Source: Leifsonia shinshuensis (GTDB taxonomy: Bacteria > Actinomycetota > Actinomycetes > Actinomycetales > Microbacteriaceae). Taken from it: 64,000 nt of DNA. The stretch lies in contig NZ_CP043641.1 in assembly GCF_014217625.1 (NCBI RefSeq), positions 1,860,001 to 1,924,000 on the forward strand, given 5' to 3'. A program made the translations under genes and the position numbers. Every line of letters begins with the position of its first letter. Position 1 is the first letter of the stretch. Of the stretch, positions 56,773 to 64,000 are shown piece after piece. The notes under the pieces were generated by a model. That model saw nothing but the letters and a program-made list of their open reading frames with translations, made no database searches and was not told the origin of the DNA.

Positions 56773-56832
56773 AGGGAAAGCCTACGTCCGCGCCGACCGC
56801 TCTCATGCCGCTCCCGGTACGCCGTGCGCGAA

Positions 56833-56872
56833 GGAGGCGGGCGGCAGGCCCCATGCCCTTCCGCCCGCCTCC
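56833..56872 (-). terminator. Hairpin after the LAxTG-like micro-protein gene
   Basis: Perfect 12-bp arms GGAGGCGGGCGG and CCGCCCGCCTCC with a 16-base loop lie 22 bases past the stop of the minus-strand small gene. It probably ends the wecB-surface protein-micro-protein transcript. Confidence 0.7.
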
Positions 56873-56893
56873 GGTCTGGTGGCTAGCCGCCGA

Positions 56894-57097
56894 TCACGCC
56901 GCGTCGAGCGCGGCGGCCTCGGCGTGCTGCGCCCTCCGCACCCACTGGGAGCGGAGCAGGAACAGCCCGGCGACGACCGCGATCGCTGCGATCACCATCG
57001 GGGTCACGCTGTCGAAGCCCGTCGAGGCGAGCGCGCCGCCGCCGAGCAGGGCGCCGCCGCCACCGAGGGGGCCGAAGGGGTTGCCGGTTCCGTACAT
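56894..57097 (-). CDS. micro-protein with LAxTG-like C-terminal anchor
   Basis: A 67-residue protein with AGGAG before its ATG. It has a short Gly-rich N-terminus, then LASTG, a hydrophobic helix (TPMVIAAIAVVAGLFLL) and a basic segment RSQWVRR. That resembles the LAxTG sorting tail recognised by actinobacterial class E sortases, but there is no N-terminal signal peptide. It is the last gene of the epimerase-surface protein unit. It may be an anchor remnant, a small membrane subunit or a sortase decoy; its function is unknown. Confidence 0.6.
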   Translation of the reverse strand: MYGTGNPFGPLGGGGALLGGGALASTGFDSVTPMVIAAIAVVAGLFLLRSQWVRRAQHAEAAALDAA

Positions 57098-57159
57098 GTC
57101 GTTTCTCCTGAGGTTCGTTGGCGAGTCGGATCGTTGTCGAGTGGGGGCCGGGAGGCGGA

Positions 57160-58449
57160 CTACTTCTGCGCGGAGCGCTTGCGGCGGCCGATCACGACGC
57201 CGCCGGCGCCGAGCACACCCGCTCCGGCGAGCCCCAGCAGCACCGGGACCTCCTGCGCGGCGATGATCACCGTCACGTCGGCGGACTCGTCGCCCGAGGT
57301 GACCGGGAGGTCGTTCTGGCCCTCGGCCAGCCCGGAGACCTCCAGCGACCAGGTGCCGTCCTCCTTCACGGTGGTGTCCGCGGGACCGGTCGGAGTGGTC
57401 ACGGTCACGGTCGCGCCCGGCGTCCCGTTGCCCGAGATCACCGCGGTCTTGGCGTCGTCGTCCTTCGAGTCGACCTGCGCGGTCAGCGGCGTGGGCACGT
57501 CGGCCGCGTCGATCGTCACCGACGTGTCGGCGGACGAGGTGACCGTGGCTCCGGTGCTGTCGGTCTTCTCCTGCACGGCCGTGAACGCGTTGGCGCCCTC
57601 GGCGAGGCCGTCGACGTCCACCGACCAGGTGCCGTCCGGGCCGACAGTGGCGGTCTTCGGGCCGTTCGGCGTGCTGACGGTGATCGTGGCGCCCGGCTCA
57701 CCCTTTCCGGTGAGCGTCGCGGCCTTCGCGTCGTCGTCCTTCGCCGAGACGGTGACGGTGACCGGCTCGATCGCGCGGAGGAAACGCGCGGTGAGGCCGC
57801 CGACGTCCGGGTTGACGACCGTGCCGGCGGTCAGCCGGGTCGCGTCCCAGTCGTAGCTGACGGTGACGGAGGACACCGCGCCGTTGAGCTGCACGTTCGC
57901 CGTCGTGTTGAGCATCGCGGTGTCCGGCGCTGCGAGGACGGCCGCGACATCGACGCTCAGCGTGTTGGCCGCCCAGCTCCACGCCGGATCCGAGCCGTTC
58001 ACGAGGGACAGCGCGGGCGCGGGCGAGCCGTTCACCCCGGTGACCTTCGGCTGCACCCACGTGCGGACGGTCGAGCTGTTGCCGCTGCCGGTCCCGAATC
58101 GGAGCACCGGGTCGCTGACGGGCGTGGAGAACGTGAACGTCTGCGTGTAGGTGCCGCAGCGGACGACCTCACCGACCTTCGTGCCCGACGTCACGCAGTT
58201 CGCGACCGGGTCGGGGATGCTCCGGAGGGAGTTCCCGCTCGGGGAGACCTTCTGGGCGCCGGGCGCGTCGACGGTCAGGGTCCCGCTGAGCGGGGCGGCG
58301 AGCGACGCGCTCGTCCCGGTGAAGGCGCTGGTCGCAGCGACGGTGCCGTCGGGCGTGGGTACCACCGCGTTGGCGGCCGACGGGACCAGGAGGGCCAGGG
58401 CGGCGGCGGTGATCCCCGCGCCGCCGATGGTCAGACGGGTCTTCTTCAT
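57160..58449 (-). CDS. secreted Ig-like-repeat surface protein with VP...GRRKR anchor (paralogue 1)
   Basis: A 429-residue exported protein. A Sec signal peptide with AANA cleavage site (residues 1-27) is followed by a variable domain with two cysteines, then two Ig-like repeats (about 230-318 and 319-398), each with a KDDDAK...GTPGATVTV...DGTWS...GLAEG pattern. The end is EVPVLLGLAGAGVLG, a hydrophobic helix and GRRKR, the plan of PEP-CTERM-like sorting signals, without LPxTG. It lies 33 bases after wecB in one transcript. Probably held at the surface or released by a sorting enzyme. Confidence 0.82.
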   Translation of the reverse strand: MKKTRLTIGGAGITAAALALLVPSAANAVVPTPDGTVAATSAFTGTSASLAAPLSGTLTVDAPGAQKVSPSGNSLRSIPDPVANCVTSGTKVGEVVRCGTYTQTFTFSTPVSDPVLRFGTGSGNSSTVRTWVQPKVTGVNGSPAPALSLVNGSDPAWSWAANTLSVDVAAVLAAPDTAMLNTTANVQLNGAVSSVTVSYDWDATRLTAGTVVNPDVGGLTARFLRAIEPVTVTVSAKDDDAKAATLTGKGEPGATITVSTPNGPKTATVGPDGTWSVDVDGLAEGANAFTAVQEKTDSTGATVTSSADTSVTIDAADVPTPLTAQVDSKDDDAKTAVISGNGTPGATVTVTTPTGPADTTVKEDGTWSLEVSGLAEGQNDLPVTSGDESADVTVIIAAQEVPVLLGLAGAGVLGAGGVVIGRRKRSAQK

Positions 58450-58481
58450 GTGCTGTGTCCTTTCTGGGACGGTCGGTTGTC

Positions 58482-59591
58482 TCAGGCGGCGTCCGCGAGC
58501 CGCAGGGCCGCCTGGGCGATCTGCGCGCCGGCGCGTCCGTCGCCGTACGGCGACGGGGTCGCGGCCAGGCGCGAACGCAGACCGGGCTGGGAGAGGACGC
58601 CGGCCGCCGCGGCGGCGATGTCCTCCCCCGGCGTCACGAGCCGGGCGAACCCGGCGTCGATGGATTCGGGGCGCTCGGTGGAGCGCCGGACGACGAGGAG
58701 CGGCTTCCCCAGCACCGTGACCTCCTCCTGCACGCCGCCGGAGTCGGAGACGATCAGGTCGGCGACGCTCGCGAGGGCGAGGAAGTCGCCGTGGCCGAGG
58801 CCGCGGCGCACGTCGAAGGCGTCCAGCAGTCCTGCGAGGCCCCAGCGGTTCGCGGCGGCCTCGGTGCGCGGGTGGAGGGCGAGGACGACGTCCGCCTCGA
58901 TCCGGCGCAGCCCCTCGAGGACGCGGCGCAGCGCCTCCGGGTCGTCGGTGTTCTCCGGGCGGTGGACGGTGGCGAGCACCAGTGGCCGTCCGGTCTCCGC
59001 ACGTTGGGCGGGCGCCGCAGCCTCCAGGGAGGCGATGGTGGCCTCGACGACCGTGTTGCCGGTGACCGCGATCCGCTCGGCCGGCACGCCCTCGCGGAGC
59101 AGGTTGTCCCGGTTGGCGGCGGTCGCCGCGCAGTGCAGCTCGGCGAGCGCGCCGACCACGAGCCGGTTGAGCTCTTCGGGCATCGCGCGGTCGTGGGAGC
59201 GCAGCCCGGCCTCGACGTGGATGACCGGGATGTCGAGGTAGGACGCCGCCTGGGCGCCGACCGAGGTCGAGTTGGTGTCGCCCTGCACGATCACGGCGGC
59301 GGGACGGTCCGCGCGGAAGTGCGCGGTGAGCTCCGCGATCCCTTCGGCGACCTGCTCGGGACGGCCCTTGCCGCTCATGCCGGACAGGCGGATGTGCGGC
59401 TCGCCGATGCCGAGGTCCGTGAAGAACCGCCCGGCCATGCTGTCGTCCCAGTGCTGGCCGGTGTGCACGACGCGGGCACGGGGGCCGAGGGCGCGGACGA
59501 CGCTCGCGAGCTTGATGATCTCGGGGCGGGTGCCGAGGACGACGGCGATGTCGCCGGAGCGGGCGGCGACGGAACGGGTGCGGGTGGTCAT
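58482..59591 (-). CDS. wecB: UDP-N-acetylglucosamine 2-epimerase
   Basis: A 369-residue non-hydrolysing epimerase that interconverts UDP-GlcNAc and UDP-ManNAc for envelope polymers. All family motifs are visible: VVLGTRPEIIK, VQGDTNSTSVGAQAA, HVEAGLRSHDRAMPEELNR and SDSGGVQEEV. AAGGAGT precedes ATG 59591. It is the first gene of the unit with surface protein 1 and the micro-protein, and has the shared bipartite promoter element about 100 bases upstream, so its sugar likely feeds the same surface polymer as the GT2 enzyme. Confidence 0.92.
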   Translation of the reverse strand: MTTRTRSVAARSGDIAVVLGTRPEIIKLASVVRALGPRARVVHTGQHWDDSMAGRFFTDLGIGEPHIRLSGMSGKGRPEQVAEGIAELTAHFRADRPAAVIVQGDTNSTSVGAQAASYLDIPVIHVEAGLRSHDRAMPEELNRLVVGALAELHCAATAANRDNLLREGVPAERIAVTGNTVVEATIASLEAAAPAQRAETGRPLVLATVHRPENTDDPEALRRVLEGLRRIEADVVLALHPRTEAAANRWGLAGLLDAFDVRRGLGHGDFLALASVADLIVSDSGGVQEEVTVLGKPLLVVRRSTERPESIDAGFARLVTPGEDIAAAAAGVLSQPGLRSRLAATPSPYGDGRAGAQIAQAALRLADAA

Positions 59592-59688
59592 GTGTACTCC
59601 TTCTCGGGTGCGGTGGTGCGGGTGGTTCCGGGTGCGGGTGGTGTCGTCCTGCGGGCCACGACACTGCAATTCTTTCGGCCGAGATTTC

Positions 59689-59730
59689 AGATTGCGGGGC
59701 CGAGCCGCCCCGGTGAGTGACCGATGAGTG
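59689..59730 (-). promoter_or_regulatory. Bipartite promoter element, wecB unit
   Basis: Read on the minus strand: CACTCA-N5-CACTCA, 19 bases, CAATCT. The half-sites are 11 bp apart (one helical turn). The same element with identical spacings occurs at 61236-61277 and 63439-63480. Confidence 0.65.
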
Positions 59731-59760
59731 CTGCCGGGGACCCGGCTGCGGTCGGCGGGG

Positions 59761-59803
59761 CGAAGGCCCCGGTCGTCGACGTGGCGGCGACGGCCGGGGC
59801 CTT
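59761..59803 (-). terminator. Terminator of surface protein 2
   Basis: Arms AAGGCCCCGG (59763-59772) and CCGGGGCCTT (59794-59803) form a perfect stem 18 bases after the stop of the minus-strand gene at 59821. Confidence 0.7.
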
Positions 59804-59820
59804 GCTTCGAGCGGGAGGCG

Positions 59821-61134
59821 TTACTTCCGCGCGCGCTTGCGGCGGCCGATCACCGCGCCGGTCGCGCCGAGCACGCCGGCGCCGGCCAGGCCCAGCAGCA
59901 CCGGGACCTCCTGCACCGCGATGATCACGCTCACGTCGGCGGACTCGTCGCCCGAGGTCACGGTGAGGTCGTTCTGGCCCTCGGCGAGGCCCGAGACCTC
60001 CAGCGACCAGGTGCCGTCCTCCTGCACAGTGGTGTCCGCCGGACCGGTCGGCGTCGTGACGGTCACGGTCGCGCCCGGCGTGCCGGTGCCCGAGATCACC
60101 GCGGTCCTGGCGTCGTCGTCCTTCGAGTCGACCTGAGCGGTCAGCGGCTCGGCCGGGGCCGGCACGTCGATCGTCACGGCGACATCGGCGGTGGAGGTCA
60201 CGGTCGTGCCGTTCTGGTCCTTCACCGGCTGGGACACCGTCAGGTCGTTCTTCCCCTCGGCGAGGCCGTCGAGGTCCACCGACCACGTGCCGTCGGCGGC
60301 GACGGTGGCGGTCTTCGGGCCGTTCGGCGTGCCGACGGTGATCGTCGCGCCCGGCTCACCCTTTCCGGTGAGCGTCGCGGTCTTCGCGTCGTCGTCCTTC
60401 GCCGAGATCGTCGCCGTCACCGGGGTGATCTCCCGCGACAGGCCGATGGACACGGCCGAGCTCTGCGGCGACGTCGCGGTCGAGTTCACCGGGCCCGCCG
60501 TCTTGACCGCCTTGAGGTCGTGGACGAAGGTCACCGAGGTGACGGCTCCGGGGAGCTGGACGTCGGCCATGGTGCCTGCGTTGGCGGGCGCTCCGACCAG
60601 GCCCGCGCCGTCGGTCGTCAGGGTGTTGTCCTTCCAGCCGGCTCCCGTGCCGGAGGCCGCCGCGAGCGGCGCGACGGCCGGCGCGGGCTTGCCGTCGATC
60701 TGGGCGATACGCGGCTCGGCCCAGCCCCTCACCTCGAGACCGTCCGCGTTCTTGACGCCCCAGCCGAAGCTGATCAGCTTCAGGATGGGCTCCGTCACCG
60801 GCGCGTCGAAGGTGAGGGTCTCGGTGAAGGTCCCGCAGTCGACGATCCTTCCGATCGCGGAGACGGCCGGCATGCAGTTCGCCTGAGCGGTCAGCTCGGC
60901 CATCATGCTCTGCGCGGACCCGGTGAGTTTGACGCCGTTCGACGCGCTCGCGGTGACCTTTCCGGCATAGGGCGCCTTCAGCGGGGCCGCCGTGCCGGCG
61001 AAGTCGCCGTTCAGGACGACCGTGCCGTTCGCGGCCGGGTCCGCGGCCTGGGCGGCGAGCGGGGTCAGGATGGTCATCGCGGCGGTCGCGACGAGCGCGC
61101 CGGTTCCGGCGAGCAGTCTTCTGGTGGTCTTCAT
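59821..61134 (-). CDS. secreted Ig-like-repeat surface protein with VP...GRRKR anchor (paralogue 2)
   Basis: A 437-residue exported paralogue of the protein at 57160. It has a signal peptide ending AAQA (residues 1-30), a variable domain again with two cysteines, the same two Ig-like repeats, and the same EVPVLLGLAGAGVLG plus helix plus GRRKR end. The last ~100 codons are nearly identical in DNA to paralogue 1, while the first ~200 residues differ strongly, which suggests duplication followed by domain exchange or gene conversion. It has its own copy of the shared promoter element and its own terminator. Confidence 0.82.
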   Translation of the reverse strand: MKTTRRLLAGTGALVATAAMTILTPLAAQAADPAANGTVVLNGDFAGTAAPLKAPYAGKVTASASNGVKLTGSAQSMMAELTAQANCMPAVSAIGRIVDCGTFTETLTFDAPVTEPILKLISFGWGVKNADGLEVRGWAEPRIAQIDGKPAPAVAPLAAASGTGAGWKDNTLTTDGAGLVGAPANAGTMADVQLPGAVTSVTFVHDLKAVKTAGPVNSTATSPQSSAVSIGLSREITPVTATISAKDDDAKTATLTGKGEPGATITVGTPNGPKTATVAADGTWSVDLDGLAEGKNDLTVSQPVKDQNGTTVTSTADVAVTIDVPAPAEPLTAQVDSKDDDARTAVISGTGTPGATVTVTTPTGPADTTVQEDGTWSLEVSGLAEGQNDLTVTSGDESADVSVIIAVQEVPVLLGLAGAGVLGATGAVIGRRKRARK

Positions 61135-61192
61135 GGGGAAGGTCCTTTCACAGGTCGGGTGTTCCGGCGGGTGACCGGGCTTTTCGGATGAG

Positions 61193-61208
61193 TCGCACGG
61201 AAGTGCGA
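61193..61208. promoter_or_regulatory. Inverted repeat in the surface protein 2 leader
   Basis: TCGCAC-ggaa-GTGCGA, extended by AGT/ACT flanks with a one-base bulge, lies 59 bases before the start codon and downstream of the presumed promoter. It may be an RNA hairpin or operator. The rest of the 290-base gap 61135-61424 holds the promoter element and the GT2 terminator. Confidence 0.45.
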
Positions 61209-61235
61209 TGACTCGATCCTCCCGTCTGAAATTGG

Positions 61236-61277
61236 ACATTGTGGGTCTGGGATGTCTTGCTGAGCGGCGGTTGAGTG
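61236..61277 (-). promoter_or_regulatory. Bipartite promoter element, surface protein 2
   Basis: Minus-strand CACTCA-N5-CGCTCA, 19 bases, CAATGT, about 100 bases before the start codon. Same spacing as the elements at 59689 and 63439. Confidence 0.65.
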
Positions 61278-61320
61278 GTCCTCGGCCGGCCCGCCCGCAG
61301 GCGCTCCGAGCGCGCGAAGA

Positions 61321-61356
61321 AGCCCCGGCCGTCGTACCCGAACGACGACCGGGGCT
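61321..61356 (-). terminator. Terminator after the GT2 synthase
   Basis: 15-bp arms AGCCCCGGCCGTCGT and ACGACGACCGGGGCT with one mismatch and a 6-base loop, about 70 bases beyond the GT2 stop. Confidence 0.65.
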
Positions 61357-61424
61357 CTCGGGTCGGCCCCCACCCGGAGGGGCCGGTGCCGGCGGCGGCA
61401 CCCGAGCACGCCGCCGGAACTCTG

Positions 61425-62792
61425 TCAGCTGGTGCGCGAGACGAGCTGTCCCGCCTCCACCGTCTCCGCGTTGCGGATGGTCTTCGCCCAGCCGGTCTGC
61501 CGGCGGACCAGCTGGATGACCGCGCGCCACGCGATCACATAGATCAGGTAGACGTACACGAGGTAGCCCAGGCCCCAGCCGAGGGCGGCGCGCCAGGTGG
61601 CCTCCGGCTCGCAGCGCAGCCGGTAGAGGACTCCCCAGATCGCGAACTCGCCGACGCCGACGACGAGGTACACGGCCAGCAGCCAGGCGCCGCCGTGGGC
61701 GAGCCAGTCCACCATGCCGTACGGGTCGGAGGCGGCGTTGACGATCATCGCGATCAGCGGGACCGGGTACAGGATCGTGCCGAGCACCTGCACCCAGGGC
61801 TGCATCAGGAAGTAGCTGAGCTCCATCGCGCCGAGGTTGCCGAGGCGTGAGCTGCCCCAGATCTTCGGGAGGTAGCGGAAGCACTGCATGGTGCCCTGCG
61901 ACCAGCGGGCGCGCTGGACGATGTACCGGCGCAGCGAGTACAGCGCCTCCTGGTCGACCCAGGCCGCCGTCGTGTACGCGTTCTTCCAGCCGCCGAGGAG
62001 GAAGTGCAGTCCGAGCTCGAAGTCCTCCAGCAGCGATCCGCGCCACGGGCCCTCACCCTCGGCGATGTCGTCCAGCGCGGAGAGCCGGGTCAGCTGGCCG
62101 TTGCCTCCGACGTTGACCGTTCCGGTGTAGCGGCGGCTCATCTGGATGGCGGAGATCGGGCCGCGGAACTCCAGATCCTGCATCCGCACGAAGGTGCGCG
62201 CCAGCAGGTTCGCCAGCCGGCCGCGGTTCGGCAGCGGCGTCGCCTCGACGCGGTTGGACATCCGCACCTCGACCTGGACGGCGCCGATCTTCGGCGTGCC
62301 GAACAGCTCGGGGCCGGCCGCGACCTCGAGGAGGTTCGCGGAGGGGCGCCCGTCGGCGTCCACGACGGCGAGGATCGTGCTGTCGCGCTCGTCGGCCGGG
62401 ATGGTCTCCCGGATGATCGACCAGGCGTGGTTCAGGGCGTGGGCCTTGCCGATGCGGGCGTTCGGGCGTCGGCGCTGGATCAGCTCGACGCCGCCGAGCT
62501 CCGCGGCGGCCTCGCGCACGATCGCGGCGGTCGCGTCCTCCGAGTCGTCGTCGACGACCCAGACGGTGGCTGCGGGGAAGGTCTCGCGGAGGTAGGCGAT
62601 GGTCTCGCCGATCACGGCCTCCTCGTCGCGGCACGGCACGACGAAGTGCCAGTCGTAGGCCGCCGGGTCGCCCATCTCCTCCGGCTTGCGCCGGACGAAC
62701 GGCAGGATGATCGTGACGACGTAGCCGAGGAAGACCGTGCCGGCCACCAGCGAGAAGATGATCGAGATGTCGAGGAGGAGCTGGTGGTTCAC
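61425..62792 (-). CDS. processive GT2 glycosyltransferase (polysaccharide synthase-like)
   Basis: A 455-residue membrane glycosyltransferase of the cellulose/hyaluronan/poly-GlcNAc synthase type. It has an N-terminal helix, a GT2 core (VVDDDSEDAT, VVDADGRPS metal site, LLEDFELGLHFL, and QRARW, the Q/RxxRW processivity motif) and about four C-terminal helices forming the export channel. It should polymerise a UDP-sugar at the inner face and extrude the chain. Its GTG overlaps the stop of the exosortase-like gene (GTGA), so both proteins are coupled. Confidence 0.9.
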   Translation of the reverse strand: MNHQLLLDISIIFSLVAGTVFLGYVVTIILPFVRRKPEEMGDPAAYDWHFVVPCRDEEAVIGETIAYLRETFPAATVWVVDDDSEDATAAIVREAAAELGGVELIQRRRPNARIGKAHALNHAWSIIRETIPADERDSTILAVVDADGRPSANLLEVAAGPELFGTPKIGAVQVEVRMSNRVEATPLPNRGRLANLLARTFVRMQDLEFRGPISAIQMSRRYTGTVNVGGNGQLTRLSALDDIAEGEGPWRGSLLEDFELGLHFLLGGWKNAYTTAAWVDQEALYSLRRYIVQRARWSQGTMQCFRYLPKIWGSSRLGNLGAMELSYFLMQPWVQVLGTILYPVPLIAMIVNAASDPYGMVDWLAHGGAWLLAVYLVVGVGEFAIWGVLYRLRCEPEATWRAALGWGLGYLVYVYLIYVIAWRAVIQLVRRQTGWAKTIRNAETVEAGQLVSRTS

Positions 62793-63364
62793 GCGGTCAC
62801 CGCCTGTCCCTTGCGGCCGCGGGCGGCGATCCAGAGCATCCCCGCGGTGGTCAGCAGCAGGCCGGCCAGCACGATCACGGAGCCGACCAGCGTGTGGCCC
62901 CAGCCGAACCCGCTGACGCCGTCGCCGAGGGTCAGCGCGGCGATGACGAGGACGCGGACGGTGTTGACGACCTCCAGCAGCACGGCGCCGATTGCGACGG
63001 CGAACAGGGCGCGCAGCACGCTGATCCGGCCGGTGGCCAGCAGCGCGGCGGCGATGAGCAGGAACGGCACGAGCAGCAGGACGATGCTGCAGGCGAGGCC
63101 GATGCTCATCGAGAAGAGCATCGGGCCGCCGGCGCCGACCGTGATGGTGGCGTGCTCGCCGAGCGCGGCTGACGCCCCGAGCACGGTCGGGATGGCCTGC
63201 GCGAAGAGGTGCGCCTCCAGCTGGACGGCCCGCTCGAGCAGCACGACGAGCGCGACGGCGAGGCCGGTGAGCAGCGCCGCCAGGACGAGCTGCGGGACGG
63301 AGGCCCGGCGGCGGCGTGCGGTCCGCCGGGCGGATGGGGTGGGTGCGAGTGGTGTGTCTGACAT
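62789..63364 (-). CDS. exosortase/archaeosortase-like membrane protein
   Basis: A 191-residue protein with about six membrane helices after a basic N-terminus. The catalytic-type residues of exosortases are in the expected order and context: Cys92 in SIGLACSIVLLLVPFLL, Arg137 in LEVVNTVRVLVIAAL, and His157 in FGWGHTLVGSVIVL. Such transpeptidases cleave PEP-CTERM-type tails, and two nearby surface proteins end in a similar tail. It is short for the family and lacks a strict CSG motif, so activity is an inference. It is coupled to the GT2 synthase and preceded by the shared promoter element. Confidence 0.6.
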   Translation of the reverse strand: MSDTPLAPTPSARRTARRRRASVPQLVLAALLTGLAVALVVLLERAVQLEAHLFAQAIPTVLGASAALGEHATITVGAGGPMLFSMSIGLACSIVLLLVPFLLIAAALLATGRISVLRALFAVAIGAVLLEVVNTVRVLVIAALTLGDGVSGFGWGHTLVGSVIVLAGLLLTTAGMLWIAARGRKGQAVTA

Positions 63365-63387
63365 GTTCGTGCTCCTGCCGGGTGGCT

Positions 63388-63414
63388 GTACTCCTGCCGG
63401 GTGTGCGGGAGTAC
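63388..63414. repeat. Inverted and direct repeats in the exosortase-like leader
   Basis: GTACTCC...GGAGTAC can form a 7-bp stem over a 13-base loop. The same leader carries CTCCTGCCGGGTG twice (63372-63384 and 63391-63403, plus strand), so the message has two AGGAG ribosome-binding sequences, the second at normal distance from the ATG. Confidence 0.5.
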
Positions 63415-63438
63415 TTCGATGGAACCAGCGGAGCTGTC

Positions 63439-63480
63439 AGGATGCGGGGGCCGCTCCCCGGTTTGAGTGCCGGGTGAGCG
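63439..63480 (-). promoter_or_regulatory. Bipartite promoter element, exosortase-GT2 unit
   Basis: Minus-strand CGCTCA-N5-CACTCA, 19 bases, CATCCT, about 75 bases before the start codon and directly after the LuxR stop. Spacings equal those of the elements at 59689 and 61236. Confidence 0.65.
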
Positions 63481-63489
63481 GTCGGAGCC

Positions 63490-64000
63490 CTACAGGTCGG
63501 GGTTCCACTCGTCGCGGAGCTGCCGGCGGTTGGCGTAGCCCAGCTTCTTCAGGAGGCGGTGCATGTGGTTCTCGACCGTGCGGACGCTCACGAACAGCCG
63601 GTGCGCGATGTCGCGGTTGCTGAGCCCGGCCTTCGCGAGGATGGCGACCTCCCGCTCCCGGTCCGAGAGGAGCTCGCCGCCCCTGTCCTGGTCGAAGCGG
63701 TGCCGATGGTCCCCGATCAGGGCGGTGCGCGCCCCGTCGTCCAGGGGTTCCCGGCCGGAGGCGGCGCGCAGCCGGTCGATCGCCTCCACGGCCGCGGCCG
63801 CCAGCTGCGGGGAGATCAGCTCGCCCGAGCGGTCCAGCGCGGTCGCGATCCGCTGCTCGTCGCCCGACCCCATCGCCACCTTCACGTCGAAGACCGCGTG
63901 GTGGAGCGGGCTGTCGATGCGGTCCATCACCGCGGCGATCTCGACCGCCTGCTCCGCCGTGACCTCCGTCAGGTCGGCCCAGAACATGCACGCCGTCGCC
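63490..64000 (-). CDS. LuxR family regulator, C-terminal part
   Basis: The frame stays open to the window end, so at least 170 residues of a larger regulator are seen. The last ~65 residues are a canonical LuxR/NarL HTH (LLSDREREVAILAKAGLSNRDIAHRLFVSVRTVENHMHRLLKKLGYANRRQLRDEW). The preceding helical part suggests an LAL/MalT-type signal-integration domain, but the ATPase end is outside the window. It sits immediately before the exosortase-GT2 unit on the same strand and is the obvious candidate to act on the shared bipartite elements. Confidence 0.88.
   Translation of the reverse strand, partial: ATACMFWADLTEVTAEQAVEIAAVMDRIDSPLHHAVFDVKVAMGSGDEQRIATALDRSGELISPQLAAAAVEAIDRLRAASGREPLDDGARTALIGDHRHRFDQDRGGELLSDREREVAILAKAGLSNRDIAHRLFVSVRTVENHMHRLLKKLGYANRRQLRDEWNPDL

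Follow-up and report, generated by a model that had tools for sequence, protein, structure and literature searches.

Paired CRCTCA boxes ahead of the three transcription units of an exosortase locus in Leifsonia shinshuensis, a candidate operator of the adjacent LAL/MalT-like LuxR regulator

Three promoters of an exosortase locus in Leifsonia shinshuensis carry the same bipartite element on the minus strand, CRCTCA-N5-CRCTCA-N19-CANNNT, in which two directly repeated hexamers are followed by a -10-like box. The locus lies at the end of a 64,000-nucleotide stretch of the genome, called the window here (contig NZ_CP043641.1, positions 1,860,001 to 1,924,000). We consider it probable that the element serves a local regulon as its operator and is bound by the LAL/MalT-like LuxR activator encoded next to it. 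The sites, the 11-bp spacing of the half-sites and the identical 19-base spacer given by an initial annotation of the window were found as described at all three promoters:

63475..63480, minus strand: distal half-site CGCTCA, exosortase promoter
63464..63469, minus strand: proximal half-site CACTCA, exosortase promoter
63439..63444, minus strand: putative -10-like box CATCCT, exosortase promoter
61272..61277, minus strand: distal half-site CACTCA, surface protein 2 promoter
61261..61266, minus strand: proximal half-site CGCTCA, surface protein 2 promoter
61236..61241, minus strand: putative -10-like box CAATGT, surface protein 2 promoter
59725..59730, minus strand: distal half-site CACTCA, wecB promoter
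59714..59719, minus strand: proximal half-site CACTCA, wecB promoter
59689..59694, minus strand: putative -10-like box CAATCT, wecB promoter

The complete pattern occurs three times in the whole genome (three contigs, 4,608,984 bases), always at these promoters, and the reversed control does not occur, so the element described from the window is confined to this locus genome-wide. When the window was shuffled 100 times, none of the shuffles reached three matches and the largest count was 0. Without the -10-like part, the repeat CRCTCA-N5-CRCTCA has four exact matches in the genome, as many as the reversed control, and three of the four fall within 3.8 kb, each ahead of a transcription unit. 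The number of direct repeats is ordinary; their clustering before three transcription units is not. The fourth repeat (C1:1043873) was rejected as a regulon site, being coding DNA over a gene junction, where it overlaps the end and the start of two genes resembling, by eye, sufS and sufU. Allowing one mismatch raised the count to 74, the four exact matches included, against 48 for the reversed control. These were not accepted as further regulon members: among the 26 whose locus was inspected (70 were listed besides the exact ones), 17 lie inside called genes and the other nine show no exosortase or surface-protein gene by eye.

The likeness of the three promoters was compared with that of random triples of distinct intergenic regions of the same genome. 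The three regions concerned measure 229, 290 and 125 bp, and the statistic asked for half-sites that agree in five of their six columns across all six copies, with the spacing free to vary between 7 and 22. Only 5 of 8161 random triples and 4 of 8161 Markov shuffles equalled it, and 1 of 8161 random triples did so at a spacing of 11. A repeat of this consistency is seldom produced by chance. Of the 33 columns downstream (3') of the repeat, 10 are shared by all three promoters (binomial P ~0.001, chosen post hoc), which results partly from a likeness between the wecB and exosortase promoters, discussed below.

The elements divide a run of minus-strand genes that fills the final 7 kb of the window, in the order LuxR end, exosortase, glycosyltransferase, surface protein 2, wecB, surface protein 1 and a 67-residue open reading frame:

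63490..64000, minus strand: C-terminal part of the LAL/MalT-like LuxR regulator; the full gene (861 amino acids) extends past the window to G000:C1:1926075
62789..63364, minus strand: exosortase, XrtP/R/S-like, 191 amino acids
61425..62792, minus strand: XrtP-associated glycosyltransferase (NF053846, 613 bits against a cut-off of 520)
61321..61356, no strand given: hairpin between the glycosyltransferase and the surface protein 2 promoter
59821..61134, minus strand: surface protein 2, with Ig-like repeats, a C-terminal hydrophobic segment and an RRKR tail
59763..59803, no strand given: hairpin between surface protein 2 and the wecB promoter
58482..59591, minus strand: wecB, UDP-GlcNAc 2-epimerase (TIGR00236, 285 bits against a cut-off of 210)
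57160..58449, minus strand: surface protein 1, 57% identical to surface protein 2 and with the same C-terminal signal
56894..57097, minus strand: small open reading frame of 67 amino acids that ends the wecB operon, starting MYGT and with one hydrophobic segment by eye
56833..56872, no strand given: hairpin 3' of the small open reading frame

The exosortase gene shares 4 bp with the glycosyltransferase gene, and the gaps within the wecB unit measure 32 bp (wecB to surface protein 1) and 62 bp (surface protein 1 to the small open reading frame). Together with the hairpins, these overlaps and short gaps delimit three operons, which is a fair expectation. A consensus scan found no T-tailed terminator-like site in 56800-63600, so the hairpins are without a T tail. 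The initial annotation had allowed for these three transcription starts only; the three units agree with it, but the regulator gene needs a promoter of its own in addition. No sigma-70 -35/-10 promoter-like match was found by consensus scan in the same interval, as expected of an activator-dependent promoter.

The exosortase scores high enough for the general family model (TIGR04178, 29.9 bits against a cut-off of 23) and stays under the curated subfamily cut-offs for XrtS (64.8 against 145), XrtR (64.7 against 150) and XrtP (49.1 against 200), as well as under that of Pfam Exosortase_EpsH (15.9 against 25.7 bits). The Ig-like repeats and the C-terminal hydrophobic segment ending in RRKR are common to both surface proteins, and across the genome only these two score well for the C-terminal signal, the two other matches being weak (E 0.03 and E 0.95). 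One-helix open reading frames of about 60-70 amino acids, starting MYGT, MYNT or MYSF and carrying an ATG/STG-type motif, recur in exosortase loci of the genus (56894-57097 on the minus strand here, and L070, L071, L072 and L079); they may be short substrates or anchors.

Read past the end of the window, the regulator has 861 residues and a GerE helix-turn-helix (PF00196, 53.9 bits against a cut-off of 23.5). It also contains a Walker A-like GDDGSGKT, weak P-loop matches under the cut-off (AAA_30, E 7e-5; AAA_22, E 9e-5) and a weak TPR_MalT match (20.5 bits, under the cut-off of 45). Judged by these sequence matches it is a LAL/MalT-like (STAND) LuxR protein; LAL regulators have been termed a poorly studied family (PMC3282765). 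The annotation had held a paired repeat to be unusual for a LuxR-type regulator, a view that does not survive the regulator's resemblance to MalT, for which paired sites are known (PMC7567727). The nearest solved structure to the helix-turn-helix, by sequence, is DosR/DevR. In the alignment the motif RTVENH puts N on Asn183, E on Lys182 and R on Lys179, which are the three base-contacting residues of DosR (PMC4082495). A second LAL LuxR protein of the genome (G000:C1:745552, L166) is 27% identical, has an ESH helix and a single CACTCA nearby; it adjoins a 1518-residue protein with, by eye, a C-terminal hydrophobic segment and a basic tail.

In the mechanism proposed here, the LuxR protein would bind the CRCTCA half-sites through its C-terminal GerE helix-turn-helix, and the two half-sites, one helical turn apart and facing the gene, would hold two subunits of an oligomer that depends on ATP. 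The proximal half-site, about 34 bp ahead of the start expected from the -10-like box, would sit near the -35 position and recruit RNA polymerase to a weak -10 in the manner of MalT. The regulator would co-activate the exosortase, its glycosyltransferase, the two likely substrate proteins and wecB. An activator that replaces the -35 contact, as the initial annotation had suggested, is the simplest reading of the half-site geometry, its aim at the gene and the MalT-like regulator next door; the missing sigma-70 match fits it, and activation is what we infer. The OmpR/PhoB-type pattern that the annotation had also invoked is matched in geometry and in nothing more.

Related loci were gathered from 28 genomes of the genus, the present one included, and from a draw of 398 genomes of the family. 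Gene calling relied on a simple script that scores codons and was trained on the window genes; it misses expected genes at L160, L161, L159 and L254, so the counts for these loci are rough. Intergenic stretches shorter than 25 or 40 bp and longer than 700, 900 or 1000 bp were dropped, depending on the count. The glycosyltransferase exceeds its family cut-off in 8 of the 28 genomes of the genus, and that of the window is matched at E <=1e-60 in 15 of the 398 family genomes, its own genome being counted in both. A LAL gene adjoins the exosortase in G019 and G021 (XrtR, above the cut-off), in G027 and G003 (under the subfamily cut-offs, E ~1e-13) and in G015 and G009 (above TIGR04178), and a LAL fragment is present in L072, a second G027 locus. 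The 2.6-Mb reduced genome of G027 holds several such loci, and at two of them (L076 and L075) the copies of the locus glycosyltransferase contain internal stops, the wecB match of L076 being in three pieces.

The half-site CACTCA recurs by LAL genes, beside the exosortase in four related genomes and beside a SipW-type signal peptidase in a fifth. It has the highest z-score of all hexamers in the intergenic DNA of eight LAL-linked loci (31 seen against 4.3 expected; own locus included, L081 omitted as near-identical to L079). The same hexamer comes first among 1762 when the SipW locus is removed (seven exosortase loci, 26 against 3.6), and again in L067, L068 and L081 alone, where neither the own locus nor a tandem array contributes (17 against 1.6). 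In ten glycosyltransferase/exosortase loci labelled as having no LAL gene, one of which (L066) in fact contains a 685-residue frame with a LuxR helix, CACTCA ranks eighth (16 against 6.5). Expressed as density, nine LAL-linked loci, the own one among them, hold 34 copies in 14.8 kb of intergenic DNA (2.29/kb), the ten loci labelled without LAL 0.83/kb, and 20 control stretches of six of these genomes 9 copies in 32.3 kb (0.28/kb, at most one in each); L067/L068 and L079/L081 are pairs of close relatives, so the independence of the loci is overstated. The boxes are oriented: in the tandem gaps of seven loci, 28 point toward the downstream gene and 5 away, with a further 5 in divergent gaps, and without L079 the numbers are 20 and 5.

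Pairs of the form CACTCA-N3-18-CACTCA were counted over whole genomes. The single pair of the own genome is at the wecB promoter, and the sole copy in G025 lies between the LAL gene and a SipW-type substrate. The LAL locus holds one of the four pairs of G021, five of the eight of G019 (in a tandem array) and two of the six of G027, upstream of the exosortase; one of the seven of G003 is downstream of a LAL gene near the exosortase. Six other genomes, with no LAL gene of the ENH helix type known at such a locus, have 0 to 4. The array of G019 has a 15-bp period around CACTCACCGCCGCC upstream of wecB (L079 13129-13270), and a contracted form is present in the near relative L081 (G021), so that operator copy number may vary through repeat expansion. 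A pair with one mismatch in L079 and L081 was dropped because it lies inside the end of wecB.

Some further repeats were recorded. The 20-mer CACTCATCGGTTGTCACTCA is identical in three genomes (L169 1501-1520, G019 and G021), and in L169 it stands in the gap ahead of a gene with, by eye, an infB-like start. A 68-bp tandem repeat with TGAGTG lies directly 3' of a LAL LuxR gene in G005 (L161 11366, 11434 and 11502), with no exosortase recognised nearby, and two distant sites of G003 (G003:C1:256873 and 652964) share an identical 29-bp stretch that contains two CACTCA boxes.

In G025 the LAL gene stands between a SipW-type signal peptidase I and a protein with a SipW-type signal, both above cut-off, and second LAL genes of G027 and G003 also adjoin a SipW-type signal peptidase. 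The presence of the box at SipW-type loci with a LAL gene favours the LAL protein over the exosortase as its partner. The loci at which a LAL gene accompanies SipW-type signal peptidase I are L158 8786-12101 (G025), L067 14970-18221 (G027), L292 2442-5688 (G003) and L159 5832-11292 (G223); those of G025 and G223 include SipW-type export substrates, and the G025 boxes lie ahead of both peptidase and substrate.

A number of observations weigh against an operator of this kind. The annotation's element has counterparts in related genomes only as a half-site: the full pattern with 11-bp spacing and N19-CANNNT was not found in the relatives, its fixed architecture is limited to the own genome, and box spacings elsewhere are 10, 12, 15, 16, 18, 22 or 23. 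Across the 28 genomes of the genus CRCTCA-N5-CRCTCA is found 47 times against 69 for the reversed control, and the 43 direct repeats of the 27 other genomes are scattered, none of them, by coordinates, in the 17 stretches compared. The looser CACTCA-N3-18-CACTCA likewise shows no excess (39 in 12 genomes against 42 reversed), which leaves placement alone as informative, and the G019 count is inflated by its 15-bp array. Three of the nine LAL-linked loci (the exosortase loci L070, L071 and L072) have no CACTCA in the regions counted; L070 has one under a wider counting rule, and the helix of all three LAL proteins reads ESH. Conversely, boxes are also present at loci labelled without LAL (four in L077, three in L069). 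At the closest named relative of the glycosyltransferase, in Mycetocola saprophilus (60%), the 21 kb available show neither a LAL gene nor an exact paired box, although they contain one match with a single mismatch. The partner at L158 in G025, considered as an exosortase, was rejected as such because it is a signal peptidase, which makes the link of the box to exosortases weaker and that to LAL proteins stronger.

The sequence of the recognition helix follows box number only in part. Among the first 14 LAL proteins of the genus, all seven with RT[VI]ENH have 3-9 boxes nearby and all seven with RTV[ED]SH have 0-2, the ENH proteins falling into two separate groups of the tree. A strict rule failed in the full recount, where at least three boxes were found near 9 of 15 ENH regulators and 4 of 41 others (these with 3 or 4); six of the 15 ENH regulators, again a point on the opposing side, have fewer than three. 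The recount includes a 695-residue ENH frame in L067 and omits both the L066 gene of 685 residues and the L072 fragment; some regions count toward two regulators, rows are related, and gene calls at L254, L159 and L161 are rough. The helix-box link appears loose and serves as a lead only.

Three other explanations have to be set against binding by the neighbouring LuxR activator. An OmpR-family response regulator (PhoP- or MtrA-like) or a SARP encoded elsewhere might bind the 11-bp repeat, with the LuxR protein acting upstream or at other sites. Direct repeats of 11 nt do mark PHO boxes (PMC4415409), the classical SARP unit is 11 bp (PMC5930380), and the half-site shares a TCA core with the Streptomyces coelicolor PhoP unit GTTCACC. 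However, at the position of the first T of GTTCACC every one of the six half-sites has C. The exact pattern occurs at this locus only, unlike the site of a global regulator, and the half-site tracks LAL genes even where a signal peptidase replaces the exosortase; relatives that share the half-site lack the 11-bp phasing. No SARP or response-regulator gene was noticed by eye among the called genes of the 10.5-kb L065, the rest of the genome not having been searched. We regard this explanation as unlikely. It is less probable still that the same LuxR protein represses, or that the boxes form a LuxR-dependent switch upstream of an unrelated promoter without replacing the -35 contact. Such an arrangement would suit boxes whose place relative to the start is only predicted and which in relatives have varied spacing and sometimes both orientations, but it accords poorly with their strong orientation bias, with the lack of a sigma-70 match in the region and with the MalT proteins of PMC7567727, which are activators with sites over the -35.

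Very improbable, in our estimate, is an origin by chance or common descent, in which GC-rich intergenic DNA and a duplicated promoter gave look-alike boxes without function. The wecB and exosortase promoters are indeed alike beyond the boxes, and their spacers too resemble each other, with a score equalled in 9 of 1000 shuffles (3 of 1000 when promoter halves are compared). The three promoters are for this reason not fully independent, and these two may share common descent, which counts against our reading. A weaker statistic, 12 invariant columns out of 17, is reached by about 1% of random triples (100 of 8161; 61 of 8161 Markov shuffles), and such pairs are no commoner than controls across the genome. 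The surface protein 2 promoter half, in contrast, aligns to the other two at chance level (53 of 1000 and 149 of 1000 shuffles) and yet carries the boxes, and the half-site is found at LAL loci of other genomes.

Binding by the LAL/MalT-like LuxR activator, which we continue to prefer, would provide a candidate regulator, an operator sequence and a short target list for an exosortase system outside Proteobacteria; PMC1569441 concludes that further regulators and DNA motifs remain to be found. It would also give a handle on operator specificity in LAL regulators. A broader and doubtful extension is that, in this actinobacterial group, surface-protein export and anchoring modules, of both the exosortase and the SipW-type signal-peptidase kind, travel with their own MalT-like ATPase regulator and operator code, an Asn at the position of DosR Asn183 reading CACTCA. 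If so, each module may have a single STAND protein that senses cell-surface state and jointly turns on the sortase or peptidase, the supply of sugar and the substrates.

A LAL activator with paired boxes is of a known kind; its operator sequence, target system and recurrence were not found described in the literature searched, which is no proof of their absence in print. Among the systems described in the passages we draw on, the PHO box also consists of two 11-nt direct repeat units, but it reads GTTCACC in Streptomyces, has many targets and is bound by a response regulator (PMC4415409). The only exact paired box elsewhere in the present genome is that over the gene junction, but PHO boxes vary and no look-up of phosphate genes was made. 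Operators of SARP-LAL proteins such as PimR share the direct repeats and 11-bp period, but the heptamer CGGCAAG is bound there by the SARP domain, and PimR has no C-terminal LuxR helix-turn-helix (PMC5930380). The proteobacterial PEP-CTERM regulon of PrsR/PrsK/PrsT resembles the present locus in that exosortase substrates have a common upstream motif and a matching regulator, although it uses a sigma-54 promoter, an NtrC-like regulator and a histidine kinase, whereas the neighbour here is a LuxR protein of the LAL type (PMC1569441). MalT sites of E. coli are described as repeats of a core hexamer, and in Actinoplanes sp. SE50/110 the sequence TCATCC-5nt-GGATGA lies over the -35 of 17 start sites and is assigned to a MalT-like activator (PMC7567727). 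The half-sites are inverted there and direct here, the MalT box GGGGA(T/G)GAGG is unlike CRCTCA, and a maltose-regulated region takes the place of the exosortase locus (PMC7567727); the difference in the box lowers the case for the regulator being MalT, not for its working like MalT. Both systems have in common a MalT-like LuxR protein and hexamer pairs 5 nt apart, 11 bp from centre to centre, over the -35 (predicted in the present locus) and in the regulator's own gene neighbourhood (PMC7567727).

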